Assembly: GCF_001567585.1 (NCBI RefSeq)
Contig: NZ_LRQV01000018.1
Span: 1 to 64,000, forward strand
Reading direction: 5' to 3'
DNA: 64,000 nucleotides
Source: Micromonospora rosaria
GTDB lineage: Bacteria > Actinomycetota > Actinomycetes > Mycobacteriales > Micromonosporaceae
Position numbers and translations under genes: made by a program. The notes beneath the pieces are model-generated. The model had not been told where the DNA came from and ran no database searches. It worked only from the letters and a program-made list of their open reading frames with translations. This document shows, piece after piece, positions 16,066 to 19,992 of the stretch (the stretch's first letter is position 1; every line of letters starts with the position of its first letter).

Positions 16066-17349
16066 TCAGCGGGGGGTGAGGCGGTCGGTGCCGACCCGGT
16101 CGCGGAGCACCTCGGGCACCAGCACCGAGCCGTCGGGTTGCTGGAACTGCTCCAGGATCGCCGGGAAGAGGCGGCTGGTGGCCAGCGCCGACCCGTTGAG
16201 GGTGTGCACGAAGCGGGTCTGCTTGCCGCCCGGCTCCCGGTAGCGGATGGCGGCCCGGCGGGCCTGGTAGTCGCCGGCCCAGGAGACCGACGAGACCTCC
16301 TTGTACTTGCCGGTGCTCGGCATCCACACCTCGATGTCGAGGGTCTTCTTCATCGAGGCGCTGGCGTCGCCCGCCGCGAGCAGGCTGCGCCGGTAGTGCA
16401 GGCCGAGCGCCTCGACCAGGCCCTCCGCGTGCGCCAGCATCTCCTCCAGCGCCGCGTCGGCCTGCTCGGGCAGGGTGAACTGGAAGATCTCCACCTTGTT
16501 GAACTGGTGGCCCCGGACGGTGCCGCGCTCGTCGGAGTGCGACCCGGCCGACTCCCGCCGGTAACAGGGGGTGTACGCGAACGCCTTCAGCGGCAGCTTC
16601 GCGGTCTCCAGGATCTCGTCCTGGTACGCGCCGAGGATCGCCGTCTCCGAGGTGGGCAGCAGGAACTGCCCGCGCGGGGCGCTGTCGGCGTCGAGGTGGT
16701 ACACGTCGTCGTAGAACTTCGGGAACTGCCCGGCGGCGTACCCGGCCGAGTTGAGCAGCAGGTGCGGCGGCAGGAGGAACTCGTACCCGGCGGCGAGGTG
16801 CCGCTCGACGAACCAGGTGACCAGCGCCCACTCCAGCCGGGCCCCGGTGCCGGTGTAGATCCAGAAGCCGGAGCCGCCGAGCTTCACCCCCCGCTCGTAG
16901 TCGACCAGGCCCAACGCCCGGCTCAACTCGACGTGGTCGCGTACCTTCTCGATGGCCGGCGGCTCACCGAAGACCTTGACCACCCGGTTGGCCTCCTTGC
17001 CGCCGGGGACGACGTCCTCGGCCGGCAGGTTCGGCAGCTCGCTCATCCGGTCGCGCAGCCGGGACTGCACCTCGTCGAGCTGGGACTCCAGCTCGGCGAC
17101 CTGCTTGCGACCCGCCTCCGGCGCGGAGACCTCCGGCTCGGTGCCGGCCCGCTTCGCGGCGGCGTACGCCCGCGCCTCCGCCTTGCGGCGCTGCCGCTCG
17201 GCGTCGATCTCGGTGATCAGGCTCCGCCGCTCCCGGTCGAGCTGCCCGATCTCGTCCAGCGCCCGAGTGACCTCGGCCGGATCCAGCCGCTTGGCCAGCG
17301 CGGTCGCCACCGCCTCGCGATCCTTCCGGATCAACTCCATGTCGAGCAT
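16066..17349 (-). CDS. serS: Seryl-tRNA synthetase, atypical (possible second copy)
   Basis: This encodes 427 residues from ATG 17349 (MLDMELIRKD). The N-terminal long coiled-coil arm (about 30-110), class-II motif 2 (CYRRESAGSHSDERGTVRG, then HQFNKVEI) and motif 3 (TLNGSALATSRLFPAILE) define SerRS, which charges tRNA-Ser. Several positions differ from the housekeeping actinobacterial enzyme as I know it: motif 2 is usually CFRREAGSHGKDTRG, and the usual SxSNC..FQARR is here SSVSWAGDYQARR. It could be the only copy or a paralogue of the kind linked to self-resistance or specialised seryl donors. Monocistronic or co-transcribed with the MerR-clamp gene 151 bp upstream. Confidence 0.9.
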   Translation of the reverse strand: MLDMELIRKDREAVATALAKRLDPAEVTRALDEIGQLDRERRSLITEIDAERQRRKAEARAYAAAKRAGTEPEVSAPEAGRKQVAELESQLDEVQSRLRDRMSELPNLPAEDVVPGGKEANRVVKVFGEPPAIEKVRDHVELSRALGLVDYERGVKLGGSGFWIYTGTGARLEWALVTWFVERHLAAGYEFLLPPHLLLNSAGYAAGQFPKFYDDVYHLDADSAPRGQFLLPTSETAILGAYQDEILETAKLPLKAFAYTPCYRRESAGSHSDERGTVRGHQFNKVEIFQFTLPEQADAALEEMLAHAEGLVEALGLHYRRSLLAAGDASASMKKTLDIEVWMPSTGKYKEVSSVSWAGDYQARRAAIRYREPGGKQTRFVHTLNGSALATSRLFPAILEQFQQPDGSVLVPEVLRDRVGTDRLTPR

Positions 17350-17500
17350 GCTGCTCCGTACGCCTCCGTCCGGCCCGTCAGGTGGGAACCCCCGAATGCT
17401 ACCGTCGCCGCCGGCTCGCGCCGCTGGCGGTGGAGCGGTGCCCCCGTCCACCGGGTCTCCCGGCCGGGCCGGTCAGTGGCGGAACCGGCGCGGGCGGTGG

Positions 17501-18700
17501 TCAGAGGCGGATCGGCATGAGGACCGAGAAGACGTCCGGGTCGTCGGGGCGACGTATCGCCAGCGGGCCGATCGGCCCGTCCAGCTCCAGCACCAGTTGC
17601 CGGGCCCCGGCGGCGTCCAGCGCGTCGAGCAGGTACCCGCCGTTCACCCCGACCCGCAGCGGTCCCGGCCCGTCGGCGGCCGGCCCCTCCGGGGTCAGCT
17701 CCCCCGGGCCGAGCGGGCGTAACCCGTCCCGGTCGTGCAGCCCGAGCACGGTCACCCGGTGGGCCGTCCCCGCGTGCTCGCGCAGCACCGTGGGCGCGGT
17801 GCGCAGCGCCGCCCGCAGGGTGGGCACGTCCACCGGTACCCGTCGGACCGGGCGGTCGTCGACGGTCCGCCGCAGCAGCCGGCGGTAGTCGGGGAAGTCG
17901 TCCGCCGGCACCTCCGCGCGGACCCGCTGGCCGGCGACGGCGGCGGTGACCACCCCGGCGTCGAGGTCGACCGTGACGGTGCCGCCGGCGGAGCCCTCCC
18001 CGGGCGGCGTGCGGGCGTCTCCGGCCGACGGGCCGGCGTCTGCGCGCGGTGGGCCGGCCGCCCCGGCCGGCGGGCCGGTGAGCAGGCTGCGGAGGGCGTC
18101 GACGGCGGCGACCGGGACCGGGGCGCGGACCGCCGGGCCGGTCACCCGGGCCGGAGCACGGCCGAACGCCATCCGGTACCGGTCGGTGGCGACCAGCCGT
18201 ACCCCGTGGGGGTCGACGTCGAACAGCACCGCGCCGAGCATCGGCAGGTCGGGGTCCATCCCCACGGCGAAGCGGACCGCGTCCAGGGCGGCGGCCAGGT
18301 CGACCCGGCGCAGCACCAGCCGGGTGGCCGCCGGTGCCGGCGCCGGCTCCAGCAGGGACCGTACCCGGGAGAGTTCGTGGCGGGCGTCGGCCAGCCCGTC
18401 CTCCAGCCGGCGCAGGTGGGCGTCGAGCAGCCCGCGCACGGCGGCCGGCTCGTCCCGGTGCCGCAGCACGGCGGCGATCCCGGCCAGCGGCATCCCCACC
18501 CGGCGCAGGCCGGCCACCAGCCGGGCCGGCAGCACCTGCTCCTCGGTGTACCAGCGGTACCCGGTGACCGGGTCGACCAGGGCCGGCGGCAGGACCCCGG
18601 AGCGGTCGTAGAAGCGCAGGGCGCTGACGCTCAGGCCGCTGGTCCGGGCCAGTTCGCCGATGCTGCGCAGGTCGCCGTGCCCGGCCGGGGAGCTCTCCAC
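17501..18700 (-). CDS. MerR-family regulator fused to a DnaN-like sliding-clamp region
   Basis: This encodes 399 residues. A MerR winged-helix domain (about 11-80; LRSIGELARTSGLSVSALRF, GYRWY) and a dimerisation coiled coil (about 92-118) are followed by some 270 residues that resemble domains 2 and 3 of the DNA polymerase III beta clamp. The evidence is PMLGAVLFDVDPHGVRLVATDRYRMA split over one block, NGGYLLDALDA, and a C-terminal VLMPIRL like the MP-R-L end of DnaN that lines the partner-binding pocket. GTG 18700 is chosen because it lies 8 nt after a -10 with a 19-bp spacer and dyad (18709-18739), giving a leaderless, probably autoregulated start. In-frame alternatives are GTG 18718 and 18754. 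The ligand is unknown. Confidence 0.88.
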   Translation of the reverse strand: MESSPAGHGDLRSIGELARTSGLSVSALRFYDRSGVLPPALVDPVTGYRWYTEEQVLPARLVAGLRRVGMPLAGIAAVLRHRDEPAAVRGLLDAHLRRLEDGLADARHELSRVRSLLEPAPAPAATRLVLRRVDLAAALDAVRFAVGMDPDLPMLGAVLFDVDPHGVRLVATDRYRMAFGRAPARVTGPAVRAPVPVAAVDALRSLLTGPPAGAAGPPRADAGPSAGDARTPPGEGSAGGTVTVDLDAGVVTAAVAGQRVRAEVPADDFPDYRRLLRRTVDDRPVRRVPVDVPTLRAALRTAPTVLREHAGTAHRVTVLGLHDRDGLRPLGPGELTPEGPAADGPGPLRVGVNGGYLLDALDAAGARQLVLELDGPIGPLAIRRPDDPDVFSVLMPIRL

Positions 18701-18708
18701 GGCCAGGG

Positions 18709-18739
18709 ATCCTGCCACCTCGACCAGGTCGAGGGTCAA
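18709..18739 (-). promoter_or_regulatory. MerR-type promoter: TTGACC, 19-bp spacer with dyad, CAGGAT
   Basis: On the minus strand TTGACC (18739-18734) and CAGGAT (18714-18709) are 19 bp apart. The spacer is filled by the inverted repeat CCTCGACC-T-GGTCGAGG (18718-18734). An over-long 19-bp spacer with a central dyad is the classic MerR operator-promoter. The GTG start is 8 nt downstream. Confidence 0.7.
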
Positions 18740-18769: not shown

Positions 18770-18826
18770 GTTAGGAAGGGGCCCTTCCTCTACCGAAAGC
18801 GTTAACAGGGGGCCCTTCCTTACTCC
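18770..18826. repeat. GGAAGGGCCCC palindromic element, copy 3
   Basis: On the minus strand it reads GGAGTAAGGAAGGG ... GTTAACGCTTTCGGTAGAGG ... CCTTCCTAAC. It provides the TAA stop (18822-18820) of the upstream saccharopine-dehydrogenase-like gene and lies about 30 bp before the MerR-clamp promoter, insulating it from read-through. Confidence 0.9.
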
Positions 18827-19992
18827 AGGACGCGGAAGGTGAGGCCGGCGCGGGTGAGGCGGTGGAGCAGGGCGTCGCCCATCGCGGTGACCGGGGTGAC
18901 CTGGCCGGCGGTGGCCGGCAGGTCGTCGAGGGCGAGGCAGAGCGCCGACTCGGCGAGCATCTTCGCCGTCTCGTCGTACCCGGGGTCGCCGCCGGACACC
19001 TCGGTCACCACCCGGCGGCCACCGCCGGCGCCCACGAACCGGACCCGGAACCAGGACTTCGCCCGCTGCTCGGGGGTCGGCCCCTGCCCGGAGGCGAGCC
19101 GACCGAGCAGCCACCGCCGGGCGGGCGGTACCCGCACCAGGGCGGCCAGCCCGCCGAGGCCGGCCGCGCCGGCCAGCACGGTGGGCAGCCGTTTCACCGC
19201 GGCGAAGTGCCGGTAGCGGAAGTCCGGGCCGTACTCCGGGCGGGCCGCCGCCGAGCGGCGGACCACCTGCGGGTCGATCGTGGGCAGCGGCACCGCCCAG
19301 CCGCCGGTCTCCGCCGACCGGCCGACCGGCCCGGGTACCGCCCGGACCCGCCGGTCGGTGGGGCGGGGTTCGACCGCGCGCCGTTCCCGCGCCACCCGGC
19401 TCGCCTCCCCGGCGCGGGAAAAGGCGGTCAGCGCCGAGTGGTACGTGCCGGCGGAGAACCGCCCACCGGCCCGGACGTACCCGTCGACGGTGATCGGCAC
19501 GTCGGTCGGCAGGTGCCGGACGGTGAACCAGACCCCCAGGTCGTGCGGGACCGAGTCGAAGCCGCAGGCGTGCACCAGCCGGGCCCCGGTACGGACCGCC
19601 TCGGCGTGGTGGCGCAGGTACGTCAGGTCGACGAACTCCGGTTCCCCGGTGATGTCCAGGTAGTCCGTGCCGGCCCGGGCGCAGGCGGCGACCAGCGGGT
19701 CACCGTGCTGCACGTACGGGCCGACCGTGGTGGCGAGGACCCGGGTGCTCCCGGCGACGGTCCGCAGCGCCTCCTCGTCGGTCACGTCGGCGGTGAGCAG
19801 CGCCAGCCCGGCCAGCCGGGGCTCGACACCGACCAGCCGGTCCCGGACCCGGGCCAGCTTCTCCGGGTTGCGGCCGGCCAGTGCCCACCGCAGGTCGGCC
19901 GGGGCGTGCCGGGCGAGGTACTCGGCGGTGAGTCCCCCGGTGAACCCGGTCGCGCCGAACAGGACGAGGTCGTACGGTCGGTCGTCGCGCAT
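18820..19992 (-). CDS. Saccharopine dehydrogenase-like NAD(P)-binding protein
   Basis: This encodes 390 residues starting MRDDRPYDLVLFGATGFTG, a Rossmann GATGFTG nucleotide-binding loop. ALAGRNPEKL, TTVGPYVQHGDPLVAACA and YLDITGEPEF are the conserved blocks of the saccharopine-dehydrogenase/trans-acting enoyl-reductase family (the mycobacterial Rv2449c/Rv2953 type). HACGFDSVPHDLG is also typical. By family it is an NADPH-dependent reductase, in mycobacteria acting on lipid intermediates; the substrate here is unknown. Its stop codon is part of repeat copy 3. Confidence 0.9.
   Translation of the reverse strand: MRDDRPYDLVLFGATGFTGGLTAEYLARHAPADLRWALAGRNPEKLARVRDRLVGVEPRLAGLALLTADVTDEEALRTVAGSTRVLATTVGPYVQHGDPLVAACARAGTDYLDITGEPEFVDLTYLRHHAEAVRTGARLVHACGFDSVPHDLGVWFTVRHLPTDVPITVDGYVRAGGRFSAGTYHSALTAFSRAGEASRVARERRAVEPRPTDRRVRAVPGPVGRSAETGGWAVPLPTIDPQVVRRSAAARPEYGPDFRYRHFAAVKRLPTVLAGAAGLGGLAALVRVPPARRWLLGRLASGQGPTPEQRAKSWFRVRFVGAGGGRRVVTEVSGGDPGYDETAKMLAESALCLALDDLPATAGQVTPVTAMGDALLHRLTRAGLTFRVLE

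Follow-up and report, generated by a model that had tools for sequence, protein, structure and literature searches.

A MerR-type regulator with a sliding-clamp fragment as its effector module in Micromonospora and other actinobacteria: a possible sensor of clamp-directed antibiotics

MerR-type multidrug regulators of the BmrR/TipA scheme combine a MerR helix-turn-helix, a coiled coil and a ligand domain, which is GyrI-like or TipAS (background on MerR drug regulators: excerpt of PMC7762955). The β clamp of DNA polymerase III, DnaN, is a three-domain protein that closes into a ring, and its peptide pocket is the site occupied by griselimycin and mycoplanecin; producers of these antibiotics carry a second dnaN gene within the biosynthetic cluster, the self-resistance clamps griR and mypR (both points from the excerpted text of PMC10817943). 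The protein described here resembles each of these systems in part. With BmrR/TipA it has in common the order of helix-turn-helix, coiled coil and ligand domain, and operator positions suggest putative autoregulation and putative exporter targets; it differs in that the effector is a sliding-clamp fragment and in that dnaN is among its putative targets in Micromonospora. Its resemblance to DnaN lies in the fold, which is that of domains 2 and 3, and in a peptide/antibiotic pocket that is mostly kept, but it lacks domain 1, has changed residues at the ring and DNA-channel positions, is fused to MerR and is only 23% identical. Like griR and mypR it is a clamp-related protein that plausibly protects against DnaN-directed antibiotics, but it is a regulator, whereas those are second copies of dnaN. 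What is new is the clamp fragment as an effector domain; the MerR drug-regulator scheme itself is known. We found no description of a MerR-clamp fusion in the open-access literature, as judged mostly from titles and the beginnings of abstracts.

By computation we examined the domain architecture and predicted fold of this protein, the retention of the clamp pocket, the operator with the genes that follow its copies, and the co-occurrence of operator and regulator. The protein is encoded in a 64,000-nucleotide stretch of DNA from Micromonospora rosaria (the window; Table 1). A preliminary description of the window had proposed a MerR regulator fused to two sliding-clamp domains, in an interval that is exactly the open reading frame 18700..17501 on the minus strand, and this architecture was confirmed by Pfam searches, profile comparison, structure prediction and comparison with the PDB.

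Table 1. Features of the regulator gene, its product and its upstream element in the window.
Feature	Position in window	Strand	Remarks
MerR-clamp regulator, coding sequence	17501..18700	minus	399 aa, GTG start, stop included
MerR helix-turn-helix domain, residues 13-80	18461..18664	minus	Pfam MerR_1, E 2.7e-14
Long helix, residues 85-117	18350..18448	minus	AlphaFold model and DSSP
Clamp module (DnaN domains 2 and 3), residues 124-399	17504..18331	minus	Pfam, model, PDB and profile comparison
Pocket positions of the clamp module, including L155, T172, Y175, R176, M177, P270, L275, N353, Y356, M395, P396, I397, R398			
Operator/promoter element	18709..18739	minus	putative roles, from position

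The N-terminal part matches Pfam MerR_1 with 53.5 bits (cut-off 21.6), and Pfam MerR also scores above its cut-off. The remainder matches DNA_pol3_beta_2 (E 7e-7, 30 bits, cut-off 27) and, below the cut-off of 27, DNA_pol3_beta_3 (E 1.5e-4, 22 bits); the residue positions given by the Pfam search are shifted by 25 relative to the query numbering. The protein has six Pfam matches at E up to 1, none of them to a GyrI-like or TipAS model. The NCBIfam dnaN model matches with E 6.8e-12 and 45 bits, far from its equivalog cut-off of 137.65, so the protein, judged by its score, is a clamp relative and not DnaN. Profile-profile comparison of the regulator with 23 clamps (E. coli, DnaN of the same genome and 21 from a sample of the phylum) gave a probability of 99.9%, E 5e-35, over 234 columns, with 23% identity to E. 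coli. The genuine DnaN of the genome is encoded separately (G000:C54). Recent capture of the host dnaN was considered but, on pairwise identity, appears unlikely: the regulator matches the DnaN of its genome at 55 of 234 aligned positions, about as well as it does E. coli DnaN (23%).

The AlphaFold model (51-row alignment; pLDDT 86.9, pTM 0.73) consists of the MerR head, the long helix and two clamp domains, in which an insert at about 211-240 is modelled poorly; by analogy with MerR structures, the helix is presumably the dimerisation coiled coil of the MerR type. Comparison of a predicted structure with DnaN, the check that the preliminary description had named, shows the clamp fold: residues 124-399 superimpose on E. 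coli DnaN 124-366 with Z 25.3 and rmsd 2.3 over 228 residues, at 23% identity. In Foldseek the best matches are E. coli clamps (E 2e-15), and the PDB matches listed are filled by clamps, the query being the whole protein with the MerR part included; they include the griselimycin complexes 6ptv and 8ciy and the mycoplanecin complex 8ciz.

Relatives were sought in at least 596 matched contig stretches, 310 of which have a tblastn relative, a number that may include plain MerR proteins. Among the best 80 of these 310, all span both modules and all have the MerR motif, a DR[YHF]R[LM] motif and a C-terminal MP; 50 of the 80, together with the window protein, make up the 51-member alignment used below. 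Relatives with both modules come from Micromonospora, Asanoa, Actinoplanes and its relatives, Streptomyces, Kitasatospora, Actinacidiphila and Blastococcus, and the architecture is, going by these matches, widespread in actinobacteria. The genome samples were drawn automatically and are composed of related genomes. In an even sample of the class, 27/296 genomes have a match at E <= 1e-38, which split by score into a close group of 14 and a diverged group of 13; in the phylum sample, 26 matches outside the class cover the clamp part only and look like ordinary DnaN. In the family sample, 40/101 genomes have a relative. Eight of the 13 diverged members were aligned and are 29-31% identical to the window protein; their upstream element starts with TTGACCTTC in 8/8 and has GAAG on the far side in 6/8. 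They appear to form a second MerR-clamp subfamily with an operator type of its own (L259-L263, L296, L301, L302).

Eighteen residues of the DnaN pocket, taken from the partial text of PMC11139829, were mapped onto the regulator through the profile alignment to the 23 clamps. Thirteen of the 18 are identical to DnaN of the same genome, as compared with 42/216 positions elsewhere (Fisher p 6.5e-6); the family consensus equals the DnaN consensus at 12/18 pocket and 65/216 other positions; and mean conservation over the 51 members is 0.82 in the pocket and 0.62 outside it (p 4.6e-4). Of the 51 members, 50-51 retain T172, R176, M395 and P396, 49 retain N353 and 45 retain R398. The consistent departures from DnaN are R152, replaced by L in 49/51, and G/S174, replaced by R in 51/51. 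On these counts the peptide/antibiotic pocket is preferentially kept in the regulator. Lack of pocket conservation among orthologues, like lack of a clamp fold in a structure prediction, had been named in the preliminary description as a result that would refute its reading, and on both points the outcome favours that reading. In the eight aligned diverged members, subsite I of the pocket is largely kept and subsite II is changed.

The preliminary description had suggested that the clamp part either senses clamp-binding peptides or replication stress, or forms a regulator that encircles DNA. Sensing of clamp ligands gains indirect support from the retained pocket and from operators before exporters and, in Micromonospora, dnaN (see below). 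The second suggestion, that DNA is enclosed in a ring formed by the clamp halves, could draw on the clamp fold of domains 2 and 3, but clamp domain 1 is absent and with it the three-domain ring of DnaN, so a normal clamp ring cannot form. Moreover, the window protein has other residues at the positions of E. coli K198 (A), R205 (S), I272/L273 (T/V) and E304 (R), which we take to be DNA-facing or ring-closing in the E. coli clamp. Several of the 18 ring and DNA positions compared are uninformative, three being without a usable residue and D at Q149 and D at E298 (25/51 members) being as in DnaN; the L273 equivalent is still hydrophobic in many members. We consider a DNA-encircling regulator extremely improbable and have set it aside. 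The clamp module gives the impression of a scaffold that would no longer load on DNA but has preserved its ligand site.

Classic MerR-activated promoters have a spacer of 19-20 bp with a central dyad, and the MerR proteins that act on promoters of this kind are, as a rule, activators triggered by a ligand. The dyad noted in the preliminary description is real and lies within an element of this kind, TTGACC-CTCGACCTGGTCGAG-GTGG-CAGGAT (window 18739..18709, minus strand), made up of a -35-like TTGACC (18739..18734), the palindrome CTCGACCTGGTCGAG (18733..18719) and a -10-like CAGGAT (18714..18709); the 19-bp spacer holds the dyad CTCGACC-N-GGTCGAG. This element is found in 80/80 relatives, where its first base lies 37-39 nt ahead of the start codon used and 20-25 of 25 consensus bases agree, and in all of them the dyad is set within the 19-bp spacer of what would be the promoter. 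Shuffled upstream regions (20 each) reach at most 17/25, the consensus having been derived from these same genes. The constant distance supports the GTG start; CAGGAT ends 8 nt before this codon, and therefore the transcript is likely to be leaderless. The dyad is probably the operator to which the MerR-clamp regulator binds. At one locus (L232 position 1500, G125:C1:2067392) the operator can be read from either strand and forms a longer perfect palindrome, ending in TGGACC where TTGACC would be expected, and one of its directions leads to a TPR-type gene.

The immediate neighbours of the gene are what we take to be a seryl-tRNA-synthetase-like gene downstream (window 16066-17451, minus) and a saccharopine-dehydrogenase-like gene upstream (18820-19992, minus). 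A rough clustering of open reading frames, in which the regulator itself was recovered in only 52/80 loci, placed serS at 46/80 and the saccharopine-dehydrogenase-like gene at 38/80 loci, in each case in Micromonospora only. Since they are confined to these loci, the neighbours were taken as passive and were dropped as a clue to function.

Operator and regulator occur together. In the family sample the operator was found in 28/101 genomes, all of them among the 40 with a relative and none among the 61 without (p 8e-16); this and the other p-values given here overstate independence, because the genomes are related, and self-sites and shared ancestry inflate the association. A search of 61 Micromonospora genomes with the operator including the CA of the -10 element found 125 places in 59 genomes, and the reversed-pattern control found 0. 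The two Micromonospora genomes without any operator are G043, which has no relative, and G015, whose only relative is low-scoring and, from the score alone, probably a diverged member.

Sorted by the downstream gene, the 125 sites comprise 55 self-sites, 28 before MFS transporters (22 + 6), 17 before TPR-type genes (13 + 4), 13 before dnaN, 10 before YunG (PF24585) and two others. Sites were assigned by phmmer against representative proteins or else by gene coordinates; the YunG list was made by hand. All labels were upheld on re-sorting with a YunG reference added, although the scores at two of the YunG places are low (36 and 41 bits). The 'TPR-type' label is based on TPR_b, in which TPR_14 scores above its cut-off, and on similarity to TPR_a (27-68 bits), whose copy in the window's genome has no Pfam match of its own. 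Among the conserved targets of the dyad, which the preliminary description had proposed to find, would thus be the regulator itself, MFS, TPR-type and YunG genes and, in Micromonospora, dnaN. The MFS1 genes lie behind the operator at nearly the short distance of the regulator (match starts 37-59 nt). Two MFS representatives score above the Pfam cut-offs for MFS_1 and MFS_3, and match models of H+ antiporter, Tet(V), EntS and Mef, all below the cut-offs of the latter.

In the window's genome, perfect sites lie in the regulator's own promoter and before an MFS gene on contig 38, and a site with two mismatches precedes the TPR_a gene on contig 34. Matches with up to two mismatches were used there, because allowing three gave 34 matches against 23 for the reversed control, which is close to noise; another two-mismatch match, on contig 3, is inside an open frame and was dropped. 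Outside Micromonospora, the family sample contains 17 non-self places: MFS 7, TPR-type 8, YunG 1, other 1 and dnaN 0. In Streptomyces the operator occurs in 9/61 genomes, with one site each, all self. Separately, we observe that in several genera the operator stands before genes for both YunG and small TPR-type proteins (L229, L207, L157 and others).

Exporters and autoregulation are the mark of drug sensors; by operator position both would apply here, and the regulator may be of this type. It could be a general multidrug sensor, in which the clamp fold is reused as a greasy pocket for assorted toxins, in the manner of the GyrI-like domain in BmrR and without mimicry towards DnaN inhibitors. 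MFS transporters are indeed the largest non-self class (28/70), the diverged subfamily keeps subsite I without subsite II, and BmrR provides a precedent (PMC7762955, in excerpt). But the concentration of DnaN identity at the pocket would be unexpected for a generic pocket, as would dnaN as a target in Micromonospora, and we think this reading unlikely.

The dnaN site was studied by scanning the 600 bp after dnaA in 103 genomes for an element oriented towards dnaN in which 18 or more of 25 bases match. This threshold was chosen after a first look at 30 regions; 200 shuffles of each region gave maxima of 16-18, and once 20, and the reverse strand of regions without the site reached 12-17 of 25. 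Six of 61 Micromonospora genomes, near relatives of others, were left out (G002, G028, G029, G034, G054, G056). The site is present in 51/55 regulator-bearing Micromonospora examined, the four without it being G012, G013, G019 and G040; the copy in the genome of the window is degenerate (19/25). It is also present in one of three Micromonospora without a close regulator relative; this is G052, a fragmented assembly in which MFS and TPR sites are found as well and the regulator gene is not. Within the same 600 bp, no site was found in 45 genomes of other genera, made up of 32 regulator-bearing ones and 13 drawn from the 61 regulator-free genomes of the family. In G040 we also noted that the regulator gene matches in two frames (G040:C411:16814-17880), which may reflect either decay or a sequencing error.

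Control of dnaN as a general trait of the family is therefore not supported, and, given 51/55 in Micromonospora and 0/32 elsewhere, the link to dnaN looks like an addition made in Micromonospora to an older MFS/TPR regulon. This bears on the possibility that the pocket reads an endogenous signal, namely free clamp-binding peptides or the tails of polymerase, clamp-loader or repair partners, and thus gauges clamp occupancy or replication stress and adjusts dnaN. The kept pocket, including the equivalents of N353 and Y/F356, and the position of the operator towards dnaN are in line with such a role. Against it, the putative targets with the wider distribution encode MFS, TPR-type and YunG proteins and have no part in replication, and the dnaN site is missing from the 32 genomes of other genera. 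To our knowledge, cells in general possess clamp-binding peptides, yet relatives of the regulator were found in only 40/101 genomes of the family sample. We rate an endogenous sensor as improbable.

In the eight loci measured, the site is 688-714 bp before dnaN, with 10-17 DnaA-box-like sequences in between (one mismatch allowed, both strands). Such a position on the dnaA side of the box region is what one would expect if the regulator steered transcription through oriC, or the loading of DnaA, and so coupled initiation to the sensed state instead of raising dnaN. The site, however, has the same promoter grammar and the same orientation to the gene as the MFS sites, and it is seen in Micromonospora only, which makes origin control a very unlikely purpose.

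We are left, with about an even balance of belief and doubt, with a drug-type MerR activator that would sense ligands of the clamp pocket, plausibly similar to griselimycin or mycoplanecin, and turn on export and, in Micromonospora, dnaN; the DNA binding, activation, ligand and protective effect are what we infer from the retained pocket and the operators. A regulator dimer would sit on promoters with the over-long 19-bp spacer, its effector domain being a ring-incompetent piece of the clamp that keeps most of the peptide/antibiotic pocket. With a ligand bound there, the dimer would distort the DNA and thereby activate the regulator gene together with those for MFS exporters and for the small TPR-type and YunG proteins; in Micromonospora, transcription towards dnaN would be activated as well. 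The ligands are most likely to be natural products that attack DnaN through this very pocket, such as griselimycin, mycoplanecin and their kin, recognised by mimicry of their target. The cell would be protected by export, by extra clamp and by the regulator itself, which would serve as a pocket-bearing decoy. The more specific proposal, a dedicated antibiotic sensor that works by target mimicry and responds to clamp poisons by supplying exporters and a decoy pocket and, in Micromonospora, by making more clamp from a promoter that borders the origin, is made tentatively and with somewhat more doubt than belief. It is suggested by the kept clamp pocket together with operators before exporters and dnaN. 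In mycobacteria, resistance to griselimycin arises through amplification of the dnaN-ori region (excerpt of PMC5694481), and, as mentioned, griselimycin and mycoplanecin producers carry a second dnaN. Sensing of antibiotics is weakened by the departures at positions 152 and 174, by the restriction of the dnaN operator to Micromonospora and its lack in four regulator-bearing genomes of this genus, by its distance of about 690 bp from dnaN with DnaA-box-like sequences between and its degeneracy in the window's genome, by the exclusively self-directed sites of Streptomyces and by the below-cut-off matches of the MFS proteins to efflux models.

If this interpretation is true, the binding pocket of a replication protein has been converted into the sensor of a transcription regulator acting on the clamp gene, and MFS, TPR-type, YunG and dnaN genes, otherwise unlinked, are joined in one regulon. 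The regulator would also be a ready-made living sensor and discovery reporter for antibiotics directed at the clamp, which are being studied as agents against tuberculosis. Should target mimicry in particular hold, the wide spread of the family would mean that natural products directed at the clamp are common and that most of them are still to be discovered.
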